Below are positions 923 to 5,874 of a stretch of 7,481 nt of DNA, piece after piece. The stretch comes from Ectopseudomonas composti (GTDB lineage: Bacteria; Pseudomonadota; Gammaproteobacteria; Pseudomonadales; Pseudomonadaceae). The translations under genes and the position numbers were made by a program. Each line of letters starts with the position of its first letter. The first letter of the stretch is position 1. The notes below the pieces were generated by a model that saw nothing but the letters and a program-made list of their open reading frames with translations, had not been told where the DNA came from and ran no database searches. The DNA lies in contig CAMPIF010000206.1 in the NCBI GenBank assembly GCA_946886245.1, positions 1 to 7,481 on the forward strand. The letters are read 5' to 3'.

Positions 923-938
923 ATACCCGTGGGGGTAT
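923..938 (-). promoter_or_regulatory. Putative CsoR-family operator upstream of the hydrolase gene
   Basis: The plus strand reads ATACCCGTGGGGGTAT, an inverted repeat (ATACCC/GGGTAT, 4-base spacer) with a run of five G. AT-flanked G-tracts of this form are typical targets of CsoR/RcnR/FrmR/CstR repressors. It lies 17 bases upstream of the hydrolase ATG, where a bound repressor would cover the transcription start. A second copy precedes the DUF3365 gene at 1952-1967 with 14 of 16 bases identical, and both are followed by TTTA. The AT-rich DNA at 939-1005 is the likely core promoter, but no good -35/-10 pair could be chosen. Confidence 0.65.
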
Positions 939-1048
939 TTAATTAAGATTGAGCGTAACTGTTTTTTAGTTCTATGCTTAGATTAAAATCGAATAATAGA
1001 AAAGACCTTGTTCGGGTCAGCTATAACCCTTTTGCAGCCTTTTCAGTG

Positions 1049-1072
1049 CCTGGCCTGCGCGGGATCGCCAGG
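1049..1072. other. Weak hairpin CCTGGC/GCCAGG in the intergenic region
   Basis: A perfect 6-base inverted repeat (1049-1054 with 1067-1072) with a 12-base loop lies between the repressor gene and the hydrolase promoter. No T-run follows on either strand, so it is not a convincing intrinsic terminator. With the stronger hairpin at 1076-1098 it could end or stabilise the upstream transcript. Confidence 0.25.
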
Positions 1073-1075
1073 TGT

Positions 1076-1098
1076 CGGCGCGCACGAGCGGCGCGCCG
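1076..1098 (-). other. GC-only hairpin just after the repressor gene
   Basis: CGGCGCGC (1076-1083) and GCGCGCCG (1091-1098) form a perfect 8-bp all-GC stem with a 7-base loop, starting 8 bases past the repressor stop codon. It has the position of a transcript-end structure, but no U-tract follows on the minus strand, so it may instead be an RNA-stabilising or partly terminating hairpin separating the haem-protein/repressor transcript from the hydrolase gene, which has its own operator. Confidence 0.4.
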
Positions 1099-1106
1099 GG
1101 AGGGCA

Positions 1107-1391
1107 TCAGGTGTACTTCGTGAATATCTCGCGCACGCGTTGCAGTGAGGCGTCAATGTCTTGCTCGGGGTCGAGCATGGCCTCTTCGATCAGGCAGGTC
1201 AGCATCAGCCGGTAGGACTTGTCCAGTGCGCTGCGCGCCGCCGAGAACTGCTGGGCGATGGCGGCGCAGTCTTCACCGCGCTTGATCATTGCCTGGATGC
1301 CGCGGATCTGCCCCTCGACCCGGGCCAGGCGCTTGAGCATCGCTTGCTGCTGCTCAAGCATGCGTACTTGCAGGTCGGTAGTCTCGGTCAT
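1107..1391 (-). CDS. CsoR/FrmR-family transcriptional repressor with atypical ligand residues
   Basis: A 94-residue all-helical protein of the CsoR/RcnR/FrmR/CstR (DUF156) family, which binds DNA as a tetramer and releases it on sensing metal, formaldehyde or persulfide. The family core KRLARVEGQIRGI spans 20-32, followed by EDCAAIAQQFSAARSAL (40-56). Cys42 aligns with the invariant Cys36 of M. tuberculosis CsoR. By my hand alignment the His61 position is Leu67 and the Cys65 position is Ala71, so the copper set (Cys-His-Cys) and the CstR Cys pair are both broken; the only other cysteine, Cys66, aligns with position 60. The inducer therefore cannot be read from the usual fingerprint. The start codon overlaps the stop of the DUF3365 gene (ATGA), with AGGA 6 bases upstream, so the two are translationally coupled and the regulator is probably autoregulated through the operator at 1952-1967. 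Confidence 0.88.
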   Translation of the reverse strand: MTETTDLQVRMLEQQQAMLKRLARVEGQIRGIQAMIKRGEDCAAIAQQFSAARSALDKSYRLMLTCLIEEAMLDPEQDIDASLQRVREIFTKYT

Positions 1392-1936
1392 GGAGTTTCC
1401 TGGGCAATGGGGCGGCTGAGGGTAAAGGCGCCGCGCAGTTCGCCGACCTGATAACCGCGGGCCTGATCATGCGGATAGTACTGGTCAATGGCCTCTTGTA
1501 CCTCTGTTTTGATCGCCGTGCCGTGGCAGGCCAGGCAGGGTTCGCCCACGGCGATGGCCTGCATATAGCGGTACTGGCCGTCGACCTCTTCGCCATGGCG
1601 TAGCTCTTTCACCGGAGTACCGGCCTCGGCCGCGCTGGCGAAGCGTTCGAGCACGGCTCGCTCCCAGGCATCGGGAGCGTTGTCCGGATTGCGTACCTTG
1701 AGCGAGGTGCGGCCCAATTGCCAGGCTTGCTGGCTGTGCTCGCTGGCGATCTGTGGCGCCAATGCCTGGCAGGCCCGCACCGCTGCGGTCGGTCCGCCCT
1801 CGGCGATGGCCTGACGGACCGTGCCCAGCAAGTGCTCGGCGAATGGTGGGATCTGCGCCGCCGCCTCGTTTTGCCTGGTGGTAGCAGCTTGTGCGGCGGT
1901 GCAGGCGAGCAGGGTGGCGAGTAGAAGTGGGCGCAT
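1388..1936 (-). CDS. Periplasmic DUF3365 (Tll0287-like) c-type haem protein
   Basis: A 182-residue protein with a signal peptide at 1-18 (hydrophobic LLLATLLACTAAQA, likely cleaved after AQA), so it is exported. A c-type haem attachment motif CLACH lies at 134-138 (Cys134, Cys137, His138), and the segment LGRTSLKVRNPDNAPDAWE at about 74-92 is typical of DUF3365/Tll0287-like domains, which often serve as haem-binding sensor or redox modules. Here the domain is free-standing, with no kinase or cyclase output domain attached. It is the first gene of a unit with the CsoR-family repressor, which overlaps its stop codon. A predicted promoter and operator lie immediately upstream (1952-1994). Its role is unknown; a periplasmic redox partner or sensor for the stress handled by this cluster is inferred. 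The start is supported by the signal peptide rather than its weak GAGA ribosome site. Confidence 0.82.
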   Translation of the reverse strand: MRPLLLATLLACTAAQAATTRQNEAAAQIPPFAEHLLGTVRQAIAEGGPTAAVRACQALAPQIASEHSQQAWQLGRTSLKVRNPDNAPDAWERAVLERFASAAEAGTPVKELRHGEEVDGQYRYMQAIAVGEPCLACHGTAIKTEVQEAIDQYYPHDQARGYQVGELRGAFTLSRPIAQETP

Positions 1937-1951
1937 GATCGATTCTCATAA

Positions 1952-1967
1952 ATACTGGTGGGGGTAT
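1952..1967 (-). promoter_or_regulatory. Second putative CsoR-family operator, upstream of the DUF3365-repressor unit
   Basis: The plus strand reads ATACTGGTGGGGGTAT, with outer half-sites ATAC/GTAT and a five-G run. It matches the copy at 923-938 at 14 of 16 positions, and the match continues to 13 contiguous bases (GTGGGGGTATTTA, 1958-1970). It begins 15 bases before the DUF3365 start and touches the predicted -10 element, so a bound repressor would block transcription. Confidence 0.65.
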
Positions 1968-2623: not shown

Positions 2624-5071
2624 TCAGCGCACCTTGCCGCGGCTCAGCTTGAGTTCTTCCTTGGCGAAGTCGTCGACGTCGATCACTCGGCGCCGCGCCG
2701 CTTCTGCCGCCTGCAGGCGCTGGCCCTGTTCGCCGTCGAGGATGCCGGCGGCAATCGCCGCTTCGATGGCATCCTGACCCGGCGCCGGTTGCAGGCTGCC
2801 ATCCTTGAGCGCCTGATGCAGACGCTTGCGCGCATCCTGGCTGGCCTGCACCAGATTCAGCGCATGCTGCAGGGCGCCAACCGAATCCTGATCGGCCTGC
2901 GGGCGATAGCAGCCTTCCAGTACCGACTCCAGGGCCGGGTCGCCGGCCTGGCGGCCGATGATCGCGGCCACTTCGGCGTCCAGTTCGTCGCTGGGGCCCT
3001 GGTGGCGGCGGCCCAGCGGGAACACCAGCACTTTCAGCAGGCAACCGAACAGGTGGTTGGGGAAGTTGCTCAGCAGGTCATCCAGCGCTTGCTCGGCATG
3101 ATGGAGGTTTTCCTCCATGGCCCAGCGCAACAGCGGACGAATCGCTTGCGGGTAGTCCAGGTCGTGATAGCGCTTGAGCGCGGCCGAACCCAGGTAGAGG
3201 TGGCTGAGCACGTCGCCGAGGCGCGCGGACAGGCGCTCGCGACGCTTCAGGTCGCCGCCGAGCAGCATCATGCTGCTGTCGGCGCACAGGGCGAAGGCCG
3301 CCGCCAGACGGTTGAGGGCGCGGTAATAGGGCTGGCTGAGGTCGTCGCCGGGCACCTGGCCCAGGCGGTTGAGGGTCAGGCCGAGGAGGAAACTGCTGGC
3401 GGCGTTGCCGATGGCGAAGCCGATATGGCTCATCAGCAGCGAGTCGAACTCGGCCAGCGCCTGATCCTTGTCCTCGCGGTCGGCCAGGGCCATTTCCTTG
3501 AGCACGTAGGGATGGCAGCGAATGGCGCCCTGGCCGAAGATCATCAGGTTGCGCGAGAGGATGTTGGCGCCCTCGACGGTGATGAAGATCGGCGCACCCT
3601 GCCAGGAACGGGCCAGGTAGTTGTTCGGGCCCATGATGATACCCTTGCCGCCGTGCACGTCCATGGCGTGGCCGATGCACTCGCGGCCGCGTTCGGTCAG
3701 GTGATACTTGAGGATCGCCGAGAGCACCGAGGGTTTCTCGCCCAGGTCGACGGCGTTGGCGGTGAGGATGCGCGCGCTGTCCATCAGCCAGGCGTTGCCG
3801 CCGATGCGCGCCAGGGCCTCCTGAATACCTTCGAAGGCTGCCAGCGGCACGTTGAACTGCTCACGCAGTTGCGCGTACTGGCCGGTGGCGAGGCTGGTGA
3901 ACTTGGCCGCGCCGGTGCCGACTGCCGGCAGCGAGATGGAGCGGCCGACCGACAGGCAGTTCATCAGCATCATCCAGCCCTTGCCCAGGTACTCCTGGCC
4001 GCCGATCAGGTACTCCAGCGGAATGAAGACGTCCTTGCCCGAGTTCGGCCCGTTCATGAAGGCAGCGCCCAGCGGCAGGTGACGGCGGCCGATTTCCACG
4101 CCGGGGGTATCGGTGGGAATCAGCGCCAGGCTGATGCCGAGGTCTTCCTTGTCGCCCAGCAGGTGATCCGGGTCGTAGGCCTTGAAGGCCAGGCCGAGCA
4201 GGGTGGCCACCGGGCCGAGGGTGATGTAGCGCTTCTCCCAGTTCAGGCGCAGACCGATCACTTCCTCGCCGTTGTACTGGCCCTTGCAGATGATCCCGGT
4301 GTCCGGCATGGCGCCGGCGTCGGAGCCGGCCAGCGGGCCGGTGAGGGCGAAGCAGGGGATGTCCTCGCCACGCGCCAGGCGCGGCAGGTAGTGCTGGCGC
4401 TGGGCGTCGGTGCCGTAATGCAGCAGCAGTTCGGCCGGGCCGAGGGAGTTGGGCACCATCACGGTGGAGGCCAGGTCGCCGCTGCGGGTCGCCAGTTTCA
4501 TCGCCACCTGCGAGTGGGCATAGGCGGAAAAGCCCTTGCCGCCGTATTCCTTGGGAATGATCAGGGCGAAGAAGCCATGTTGCTTGATGTGCTCCCAGGC
4601 TTTCTCCGGCAGATCCATCTGCTGGCCGACCTGCCAGTCGCTGATCATCGCGCAGAGCTCTTCGGTGGGGCCGTCGATGAATGCCTGTTCTTCTTCGCTC
4701 AGCGTGGCCTTGGGATAGGCCAGCAGCTTGTCCCAGTCCGGCTTGCCGCTGAACAGTTCGCCATCCCACCAGACGGTGCCGGCTTCGATGGCGTCGCGTT
4801 CGGTTTCCGACATTGGCGGCAGCACGCGCTGGAACCAGGCGAACAATGGGCGGGTGAACAGTTGCCGGCGTAGATCGCCGAGCAGGATGAACGCGGCGAC
4901 GGCACCGGTGACGATCCACAGCAACAATTGCAACCAACCCGGTACCGGGCTGAACAACGCCATGGCCAGCAGGTAGGCTGCGGTGATGCCGAGGGCAGGC
5001 AGGGCGGCGGTACGGCTATGGGCCAGGTAGGTGACCCCGAGCAGCAGAACCAGCAACCAGATGACGAGCAT
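2624..5071 (-). CDS. fadE: FadE-type acyl-CoA dehydrogenase
   Basis: An 815-residue flavoenzyme (817 from an upstream ATG) matching the FadE length of about 814. It catalyses the first step of fatty-acid beta-oxidation, converting acyl-CoA to trans-2-enoyl-CoA with FAD. Residues are numbered here from the upstream ATG. The N-terminus has hydrophobic segments at about 2-19, 24-42 and 47-66, indicating inner-membrane anchoring. The dehydrogenase domains follow: an N-terminal helical part (about 130-240), the middle beta part with FALTGPLAGSDAGAM (243-257) and the C-terminal helical part with FEGIQEALARIGGNAW (415-430) and MDVHGGKGI (472-480). Glu502 in ITVEGANILSRNLMIFGQG is the likely catalytic base. 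A DUF1974 C-terminal region (about 525-810) is characteristic of FadE. Start at 5071: GGAGG at 5083-5079 is 7 bases from this ATG but only 1 base from the ATG at 5077. The gene is divergent from the transglutaminase-like gene. No PsrA/FadR operator was recognised upstream. Confidence 0.93.
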   Translation of the reverse strand: MLVIWLLVLLLGVTYLAHSRTAALPALGITAAYLLAMALFSPVPGWLQLLLWIVTGAVAAFILLGDLRRQLFTRPLFAWFQRVLPPMSETERDAIEAGTVWWDGELFSGKPDWDKLLAYPKATLSEEEQAFIDGPTEELCAMISDWQVGQQMDLPEKAWEHIKQHGFFALIIPKEYGGKGFSAYAHSQVAMKLATRSGDLASTVMVPNSLGPAELLLHYGTDAQRQHYLPRLARGEDIPCFALTGPLAGSDAGAMPDTGIICKGQYNGEEVIGLRLNWEKRYITLGPVATLLGLAFKAYDPDHLLGDKEDLGISLALIPTDTPGVEIGRRHLPLGAAFMNGPNSGKDVFIPLEYLIGGQEYLGKGWMMLMNCLSVGRSISLPAVGTGAAKFTSLATGQYAQLREQFNVPLAAFEGIQEALARIGGNAWLMDSARILTANAVDLGEKPSVLSAILKYHLTERGRECIGHAMDVHGGKGIIMGPNNYLARSWQGAPIFITVEGANILSRNLMIFGQGAIRCHPYVLKEMALADREDKDQALAEFDSLLMSHIGFAIGNAASSFLLGLTLNRLGQVPGDDLSQPYYRALNRLAAAFALCADSSMMLLGGDLKRRERLSARLGDVLSHLYLGSAALKRYHDLDYPQAIRPLLRWAMEENLHHAEQALDDLLSNFPNHLFGCLLKVLVFPLGRRHQGPSDELDAEVAAIIGRQAGDPALESVLEGCYRPQADQDSVGALQHALNLVQASQDARKRLHQALKDGSLQPAPGQDAIEAAIAAGILDGEQGQRLQAAEAARRRVIDVDDFAKEELKLSRGKVR

Positions 5072-5078
5072 GTGCATT

Positions 5079-5211: not shown

Positions 5212-5874
5212 ATGCAGACCTGTCTACGTCCCGGCCGCTTCATTGACAGTGACCACCCAGCGGTAGTCGAGTTCGCCGAGCGTTGGCGTGGCGCCTCACG
5301 AGAACCGCTCGGTCAGGCTGTGGCGCTATATCTCGCGGTACGTGACGAGATTCGTTACAACCCCTATGCCTTCAGTCTCGATGCGCAGACATTGAAGGCC
5401 AGCCATGCGCTGGCGAGCGCTGAGTCCTACTGCGTACCCAAGGCCAATCTGCTTGCCGCTTGCGCCCGGCATTGCGGCATTCCCGCGCGTATCGGCCTGG
5501 CCGACGTGCGCAATCACCTGTCCACGCCGCGCCTGCTGGAGTTGCTGCGCAGCGAGGTGTTCGCCATGCACGGCTATACCGAACTCCATCTTAACGGGCG
5601 CTGGGTCAAGGCCACGCCGGCGTTCAACGAGGCGCTGTGCCGGGTATTCAAGGTAGCGCCGCTGGAATTCGACGGCGTGCATGACAGCGTCTTTCACCCC
5701 TATAACGACAGGGGCGAGCGTTACATGGAGTACCTGCACGACCACGGTCAGTTCGAAGATCTGCCCGAGCAGCTGTTCTTCGATCATCTGCGCGTCTGTT
5801 ATCCGCACCTGTTCGAGGCCGGTGCGTTGCAGTTGAGTGGCGACATGCAGCGTGAGGTCAGTGTTATCGACTGA
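5212..5874 (+). CDS. Transglutaminase-like (cysteine protease fold) family protein
   Basis: A 220-residue protein, no signal peptide or membrane segment, so predicted cytoplasmic. It has the bacterial transglutaminase-like/papain-fold core: a helix with VRDEIRYNPYAF (43-54), the nucleophile segment SYCVPKANLLAACARHCGIPARI (72-94) with Cys74, and the His segment MHGYTELHLNGRWVKATPAFN (119-139) with His120. The usual third catalytic residue, Asp in a W-x-x-x-D-P motif, is replaced by Thr135 (WVKATP), so it may use another residue or act non-hydrolytically. The C-terminal part (150-220) is aromatic and acidic and contains no domain I recognise. Such proteins are thought to cleave or modify peptide or isopeptide bonds; the substrate is unknown. 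The start is supported by AGGAG 8 bases upstream. It is divergent from fadE, across 140 bases, and upstream of the ABC exporter, with no evident functional link. Confidence 0.85.
   Translation: MQTCLRPGRFIDSDHPAVVEFAERWRGASREPLGQAVALYLAVRDEIRYNPYAFSLDAQTLKASHALASAESYCVPKANLLAACARHCGIPARIGLADVRNHLSTPRLLELLRSEVFAMHGYTELHLNGRWVKATPAFNEALCRVFKVAPLEFDGVHDSVFHPYNDRGERYMEYLHDHGQFEDLPEQLFFDHLRVCYPHLFEAGALQLSGDMQREVSVID

Follow-up and report, generated by a model that had tools for sequence, protein, structure and literature searches.

The window (the whole 7,481-nucleotide stretch of Ectopseudomonas composti DNA analyzed here) carries two almost identical 16-bp palindromes, each just upstream of a start codon, with the gene for a small CsoR-family repressor between them. 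This arrangement raises the question of which protein reads the palindromes, which genes it would control, and what signal it would sense. The first-pass annotation had proposed that a single CsoR-family regulator controls both promoters. The answer that we consider probable, on the basis of sequence comparison, is that the palindromes are the operators of this repressor, which would act as a persulfide-responsive switch on three transcription units and coordinate sulfide oxidation with a bd-type oxidase.

The palindromes and the genes around them

The coordinates of the palindromes, the identity of 14 of their 16 bases, their distances from the two start codons, and the location of the repressor gene between them are exactly as first annotated (Table 1). 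In gene orientation, both palindromes read AAATACCCCCAC-NN-GTAT. When the window is compared with eight relatives, the ATAC/GTAT arms are invariant in 8/8 columns at both promoters, and the whole operators retain 14/16 and 13/16 invariant columns, compared with 26/68 and 47/112 in the upstream sequence. A pseudo-palindromic 16-mer with a G/C tract in front of the repressor operon is, as far as sequence can tell, what is expected of the CsoR/RcnR (DUF156) family. With up to three mismatches allowed, the window contains three matches, against 0.22 expected from shuffled sequences; the third (positions 457-472, two mismatches) is found at the same place in seven of the eight close relatives and was rejected as an operator because it lies within the coding part of PDO. 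Just upstream of the PDO operator, the window (approximately 952-977, minus strand) and the eight relatives share a further conserved block that consists of GCATAGAAC and the bases following it. A sigma-70 scan of positions 880-2100 returned a single weak minus-strand site, located at neither operator. The ATGA overlap suggests that the haem-protein and repressor genes form a two-gene operon.

Table 1. Coordinates of the genes, codons, and predicted operators in the window
Feature	Position	Strand	Remark
Persulfide dioxygenase (PDO) gene, metallo-beta-lactamase fold, 287 aa	42-905	minus	Pfam PF00753; PDB 9g8t
O-PDO, predicted operator ATACCCGTGGGGGTAT	923-938		17 bp upstream of PDO start (ATG at 905)
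CsoR-family (DUF156, PF02583) repressor gene, 94 aa, with C42 and C66	1107-1391	minus	
Repressor Cys66 codon	1194-1196	minus	One residue before the CsoR-family metal-ligand His position; spacing +24, not +29
Repressor Cys42 codon	1266-1268	minus	Aligned with first Cys of CsoR, CstR, and InrS
ATGA, haem-protein stop overlapping repressor start	1388-1391	minus	
DUF3365/Tll0287 (haem-Cache) haem c protein gene, 182 aa	1388-1936	minus	Pfam PF11845; Tll0287 5b82, E 4.3e-11
CLACH haem c attachment motif	1523-1537	minus	Sequence
Cys56 codon, candidate axial haem ligand	1769-1771	minus	Kept in 26/26 loci
O-haem, predicted operator ATACTGGTGGGGGTAT	1952-1967		15 bp upstream of haem-protein start (1936)
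PA2817-family gene	2040-2447	minus	
FadE gene	2624-5077	minus	

Distribution of the operator and of the repressor gene

Genome-wide counts of the motif were obtained from relatives, which were collected by scanning named genomes with a 34-sequence alignment of the repressor and keeping the best 80 of 527 confirmed stretches. The closest among the matches listed is Pseudomonas sp. 8O (L001/L142), whose repressor and PDO are 100% and 99% identical to those of the window; its next relatives are P. alcaliphila, P. mendocina, and P. oleovorans. The consensus RTACNNNTGGGRGTAT was derived from the window sites and the relatives, its letters being shaped on sites at repressor-bearing loci, and a slightly looser pattern, RTACNNNNGGGRGTAT, was used for the upstream sites of distant relatives, the PDO-promoter counts, the exception genomes, and the tandem operators. 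In the 5.2-Mb genome of Pseudomonas sp. 8O, RTACNNNTGGGRGTAT occurs exactly three times, at the promoters of PDO, of the haem-repressor operon, and of cydP-cydAB; the copy before cydP, ATACTCATGGGGGTAT, corresponds to a place outside the window. Across eight close genomes, 22 exact matches were found, 21 of them at these three promoters (3, 3, 2, 3, 3, 2, 2, and 3 per genome, some genomes lacking one of the exact sites) and one elsewhere, and the reversed control gave one. When the pattern ATACNNGTGGGGGTAT was searched in three relatives with at most one mismatch, it was found at the two window promoters and cydP in Pseudomonas sp. 8O and only at the two window promoters in the other genomes; with up to two mismatches, the real counts (13, 9, and 10; sum 32) did not exceed those of the reversed control (19, 5, and 13; sum 37), and the two-mismatch matches are therefore background. 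The first-pass annotation had staked its proposal on the motif being present at orthologous loci and uncommon elsewhere in the genome, and at the level of sequence it withstands this test, since the motif is found at those loci and almost nowhere else.

Forty of the best 80 (of 527) loci were chosen, and 39 of their genomes, all repressor-bearing, were searched with the looser RTACNNNKGGGRGTAT, which gave 46 matches in 30 genomes, none in the remaining nine, and six in the reversed control. Outside Pseudomonas sp. 8O, a script placed 38 of the 43 matches within 300 bp upstream of a reference gene (41/46 when its three are included), some of these reference genes (YeeE, peroxiredoxin, rhodanese, DsrE-like, and OsmC) having been picked partly for their nearness to matches; the genes known from Pseudomonas sp. 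8O alone, namely those for the haem protein (8), PDO (7), the repressor (5), and cydP (5), account for 25/43. The other targets are YeeE (4), OsmC/amidohydrolase (4), peroxiredoxin (2), periplasmic rhodanese (2), and a DsrE-like protein (1) that has no Pfam match and was named by eye, and five matches were unassigned. The reading-frame picker was weighted by third-position G+C, and it missed or extended some genes. The 3.7-Mb genome of S. stutzeri K1 contains three matches, one each at the promoters of cydP, PDO, and the haem-repressor operon; the cydP and PDO sites are 16 kb apart and the haem-repressor site is on another contig. With the sites at three separate places, the shared operator is unlikely to have arisen by tandem duplication inside a single cluster.

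Some arrangements were seen in individual genomes. Four Stutzerimonas-type genomes have an operator between divergent OsmC and amidohydrolase genes (L125, L127, and L130 near 1501; L126 near 727), and OsmC-like genes are also found near the repressor in L046 and, by eye, in L076 and L078; these are possibly a further target and are not obviously sulfur genes. Three Pseudomonas genomes have tandem operators 18-20 bp apart before the repressor or the haem-repressor operon (L109 1501/1519, L110 1501/1521, and L111 1501/1519). In L188, a gene that by eye is peroxiredoxin-like and TehA-like, TsoY-family, and octahaem tetrathionate-reductase-family genes lie between the repressor and PDO, and a fourth operator (12863) is approximately 190 bp upstream of the peroxiredoxin-like gene. 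The sequence CTGACCTGCATCAA is found just upstream of the cydP operator of Pseudomonas sp. 8O (L142, approximately 5857-5870, minus strand) and is largely kept in relatives; it resembles an ANR/FNR half-site, which would suggest control by oxygen as well.

Among 149 genomes of the genus, 13 contain an orthologue of the repressor (at least 61% identity), the best match in all others reaching about 36-38% at most. The exact motif is present in 11/13 repressor-positive and 3/136 repressor-negative genomes (Fisher 2e-12, relatedness ignored), and in 6/7 versus 3/136 when the six repressor-positive genomes known beforehand are set aside (5e-8, relatedness ignored). The reversed pattern shows no such link (2/13 versus 25/136). 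Because the raw total of the genus is not in excess of the control (21 real versus 29 reversed-pattern matches, the latter counted by hand) and the control lacks this split, the argument rests on the division of the genomes by presence of the repressor. The two repressor-positive genomes without the motif have a one-mismatch site before the repressor or haem gene, which was looked for afterwards with the looser pattern; the three repressor-negative genomes with the motif have no gene of the first reference set within the surrounding 10 kb.

The same dependence is seen at individual promoters. PDO (E 1e-60 or better) is encoded in 133/149 genus genomes, and among the 30 PDO loci listed, one per genome, an operator with at most one mismatch lies within 300 bp upstream at six of eight repressor-positive loci, the other two having none, and at 0/22 repressor-negative ones (p 4.7e-5), four of the latter encoding a PDO of 79-80% identity. 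In all six cases, 15-26 bp separate the site from the beginning of the PDO match. The cydP gene is found in 16/149 genomes, and its promoter carries the site in all five repressor-positive genomes (three exact, two with one mismatch), whereas no operator was seen at that promoter in the only genome that has a close cydP (71%) but no repressor; ten repressor-negative genomes with a distant cydP (42-49%) yielded one two-mismatch match, 33 bp before a 48% cydP. Furthermore, 10 of 21 distant repressors (42-60% identity, some of them near-duplicates) are preceded by the palindrome, with at most one mismatch, within 170 bp, against 0.025 expected.

BigR is a member of the ArsR family. It is highly improbable that another regulator, such as FisR or an ArsR protein of the BigR/SqrR type, reads the operators and that the CsoR-family gene is a passenger. 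An ArsR-type HTH protein was seen by eye near the repressor in 12 loci, mainly of Stutzerimonas, and sulfide regulation in Acinetobacter is assigned to FisR and BigR (PMC7315123). Against this reading, the motif tracks the presence of the repressor both genus-wide and at the PDO and cydP promoters, and it is still found in front of the repressor gene itself in relatives of 42-60% identity. Its form, a TAC..GTA palindrome containing a G-tract, is also that of published CsoR-family operators (PMC10318464). The proposal of one CsoR-family regulator for both promoters is thus supported, the evidence being the tracking of the motif with the presence or absence of the repressor gene. Sequence comparison likewise supports the identity of the operators and a regulon of three promoters.

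A CsoR-family repressor with a shifted cysteine pair

The repressor has a PF02583 domain and a three-helix fold, as expected of the CsoR/RcnR (DUF156) family; its monomer was modeled as a confident three-helix CsoR-like fold, with InrS, FrmR, and CsoR as structural neighbors. It is the sole PF02583 protein in five of the eight close genomes, including Pseudomonas sp. 8O. Both C42 and C66 are present in all 34 aligned sequences and in all of the best 80 (of 527) loci, down to 42% identity and in records named as gamma-, beta-, and alphaproteobacterial, and the scan patterns covered neither residue. Alignment with CstR (7mq3), InrS, and Streptomyces CsoR places C42 at the first cysteine and C66 one residue before the His position. 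The residue after C66, which we take to correspond to FrmR H60 and CsoR H61, is His in InrS and Streptomyces CsoR and would be expected to be so in a CsoR (Cu), InrS, RcnR, or FrmR protein, but it is Leu67 in the window and never His in those best 80 loci. Similarly, the second-Cys position is Ala71 in the window and never Cys in the 80 loci, and the cysteines are spaced by 24 in 80/80, not by 29 as in CstR. By its sequence, therefore, the repressor is a distinct CsoR-family clade with neither the metal-site His nor a Cys at the CstR position.

It is very unlikely that this protein is a classic sensor of metals (Cu, Ni/Co) or formaldehyde, of the CsoR, RcnR, or FrmR kind, that stands beside sulfur genes by chance. 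Its Pfam name, "metal-sensitive transcriptional repressor," and its structural neighbors would suit such a sensor, as would the NCBIfam matches to RicR, FrmR, and RcnR; however, these are all far below their cut-offs (36.8, 29.5, and 26.2 bits versus 175, 133, and 138), the ligand positions hold no His (67) and no Cys (71) in any of the 80 loci, and the script-assigned genes behind the operators (5/43 unassigned) are sulfur, redox, or respiratory genes, with no metal exporter.

The best reading is that the repressor works like CstR but is not CstR. Like CstR of Staphylococcus aureus and other Firmicutes and its Bacillus homologue YrkD, it combines a CsoR/DUF156 fold with two conserved cysteines and no metal His, and has predicted operators at its own and at sulfur-gene promoters, with targets of the same kind, such as rhodanese, SQR, PDO, and TauE. 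In CstR, the characteristic response to persulfide or polysulfide is cross-linking between protomers and loss of DNA binding. By contrast, the cysteines of CstR are C31/C60 (+29; PMC9774590) instead of C42/C66 (+24), and the accessible parts of the CstR literature mention no cytochrome bd or DUF3365 haem gene in its regulon. TTHA1953 of Thermus thermophilus is also a thiol-controlled CsoR-family protein that acts on sulfur oxidation genes at several promoters through a TAC/GTA palindrome, but it is described with C39/C68 (+29), an operator without a G-tract, the Sox pathway, and a gene far from its targets (PMC10318464). Because the C66 position is not known to react in the characterized members compared, any C42-C66′ chemistry is a guess.

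Sulfide oxidation, cytochrome bd, and the signal

The PDO matches 9g8t over its full length (residues 2-286, E 2.5e-142, top PDB chain), which is PaPDO of P. aeruginosa (PMC12856154), and by this similarity it is assigned as a PaPDO-type persulfide dioxygenase. Assignment as Blh (NF040641) was rejected: the score was 401.1 bits against a cut-off of 625, and only profile positions 141-423 were matched, without the N-terminal sulfurtransferase domain. The gene after PDO in Pseudomonas sp. 8O encodes SQR with a fused sulfurtransferase domain, and the order is PDO, sulfurtransferase-SQR, SulP with a fused rhodanese, and then cydP-cydA-cydB-ybgE; the sulfurtransferase-SQR and SulP-rhodanese genes would fall past the left end of the window. 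The predicted regulon is thus wider than the window, with SQR, SulP, and rhodanese behind PDO and a third operator at the cytochrome bd operon, and the PDO, SQR, and SulP-rhodanese genes give it, if regulated as predicted, a CstR-like content. At least one sulfur gene (PDO, SQR, SulP, rhodanese, TauE, or YeeE, a reference set partly chosen from genes near motif matches) is found in the examined stretch at 56 of the best 80 (of 527) loci and none of this set at the other 24. The comparison of these genomes supports both the conservation of the cysteines and a gene content of sulfur and bd functions.

SulP and rhodanese form one 710-aa frame in Pseudomonas sp. 8O (L142 5919-8051) and two genes in several close relatives. 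In the distant L059, L061, and L062, three of the 24 loci without a sulfur gene of this set, the next gene encodes a large transporter, of RND/MMPL type in the one that was searched by family. In another group of Pseudomonas (L047, L048, L051, L185, and L190), the repressor has a second bd-type oxidase nearby, a shorter CioA-like one (466-487 aa), which is apparently an independent link of the repressor to a quinol oxidase.

The haem protein belongs to the DUF3365/Tll0287 family (PF11845, 90.8 bits versus 24.1), with one CXXCH and, by eye, an apparent signal peptide; a PDB search found only Tll0287 above noise. Its gene precedes that of the repressor in 26 of the best 80 (of 527) loci; Cys56 is present in 26/26 and CXXCH in 25/26, the exception being an interrupted copy (L050 5443-5971) whose first frame lacks CXXCH and whose adjoining repressor is open. 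In a stand-alone DUF3365 protein of P. putida, the haem is reported to have Cys/His ligation through C59 and to bind NO weakly, and a redox role was proposed (PMC12889525). C56 of the window may be the equivalent of this C59, and the haem protein may have a role in redox chemistry or electron transfer.

Sulfide can donate electrons, and it also poisons haem-copper oxidases. In the model that we consider probable, the repressor would occupy both operators as well as the cydP-cydAB promoter at low sulfide and keep transcription off. Once sulfide has been oxidized to persulfide or polysulfide, C42 and the C66 of the partner protomer would be linked or persulfidated, and the modified repressor would leave the DNA, derepressing three transcription units: the haem protein-repressor operon (autoregulation), the PDO/sulfurtransferase-SQR/SulP-rhodanese genes, and the cytochrome bd operon. 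SQR would then pass sulfide electrons to quinone, and the bd oxidase, of a type reported to be sulfide-resistant (PMC7315123, PMC10968556), would pass quinone electrons to oxygen.

Alternatively, though in our view this is unlikely, the regulon may be real while its dithiol senses cyanide, NO, or oxidants in general, PDO and bd oxidase then serving as a response to respiratory poisons. Protection by bd oxidases is reported against cyanide, NO, and sulfide (PMC11837568, PMC10968556), some haem-Cache proteins bind NO (PMC12889525), and in other genomes a 1-Cys peroxiredoxin gene, too, lies behind operators. Because TTHA1953, the CsoR protein of sulfur genes, is reported not to respond to NaHS (PMC10318464), the signal could also be another thiol oxidant. 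On the other hand, PDO is the commonest target besides the haem-repressor operon (seven sites), and YeeE (four), periplasmic rhodanese (two), and the DsrE-like protein (one) stand beside cydP (five), OsmC (four), and peroxiredoxin (two); moreover, the stand-alone haem-Cache protein that was tested bound NO only weakly (PMC12889525). A persulfide signal is the one that we favor.

CydE of Alishewanella is reportedly a dedicated regulator of sulfide-protective cytochrome bd. CioR of Chromobacterium violaceum is another such regulator; cyanide induced cioRAB among the compounds tested, and no link to SQR or PDO was seen in the available part of that study (PMC11837568). As far as these sources go, CioR and CydE are of the MarR/GbsR family, unlike the CsoR-family repressor proposed here. 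In Acinetobacter baumannii, SQR/PDO and YeeE/PDO operons are under sulfide or persulfide control by FisR and BigR, a sigma-54 activator and a repressor in place of the single repressor proposed here, and sulfide also raises cydAB transcripts, which the accessible part of that report assigns to neither (PMC7315123). CsoR-family sulfur repressors and bd oxidases with their own repressors are already known. In the open-access literature searched, no description was found of this repressor clade or its cysteine register, or of a CsoR repressor that governs PDO/SQR together with cytochrome bd; the clade, its register, and the predicted control of PDO/SQR and bd oxidase by one CsoR repressor would be new.

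It is also tempting to speculate that a separate CsoR clade, present in several proteobacterial groups, detects persulfide by means of a C42-C66′ dithiol (+24), a register that none of the characterized members compared uses, that in Pseudomonas it couples sulfide oxidation directly to the synthesis of bd oxidase, and that the haem-Cache protein is a periplasmic redox partner, an extended proposal that we judge evenly poised between right and wrong. The shifted cysteine pair raises the question of how CsoR proteins host a persulfide switch, and the operator is specific enough for sequence-based mapping of the regulon in other genomes. From a single small repressor and its 16-bp operator, a link between sulfide oxidation and bd oxidase is predicted, with exact sites to mutate. 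If the model is true, an electron source and a poison-proof sink for its electrons would be switched on by one sensor.
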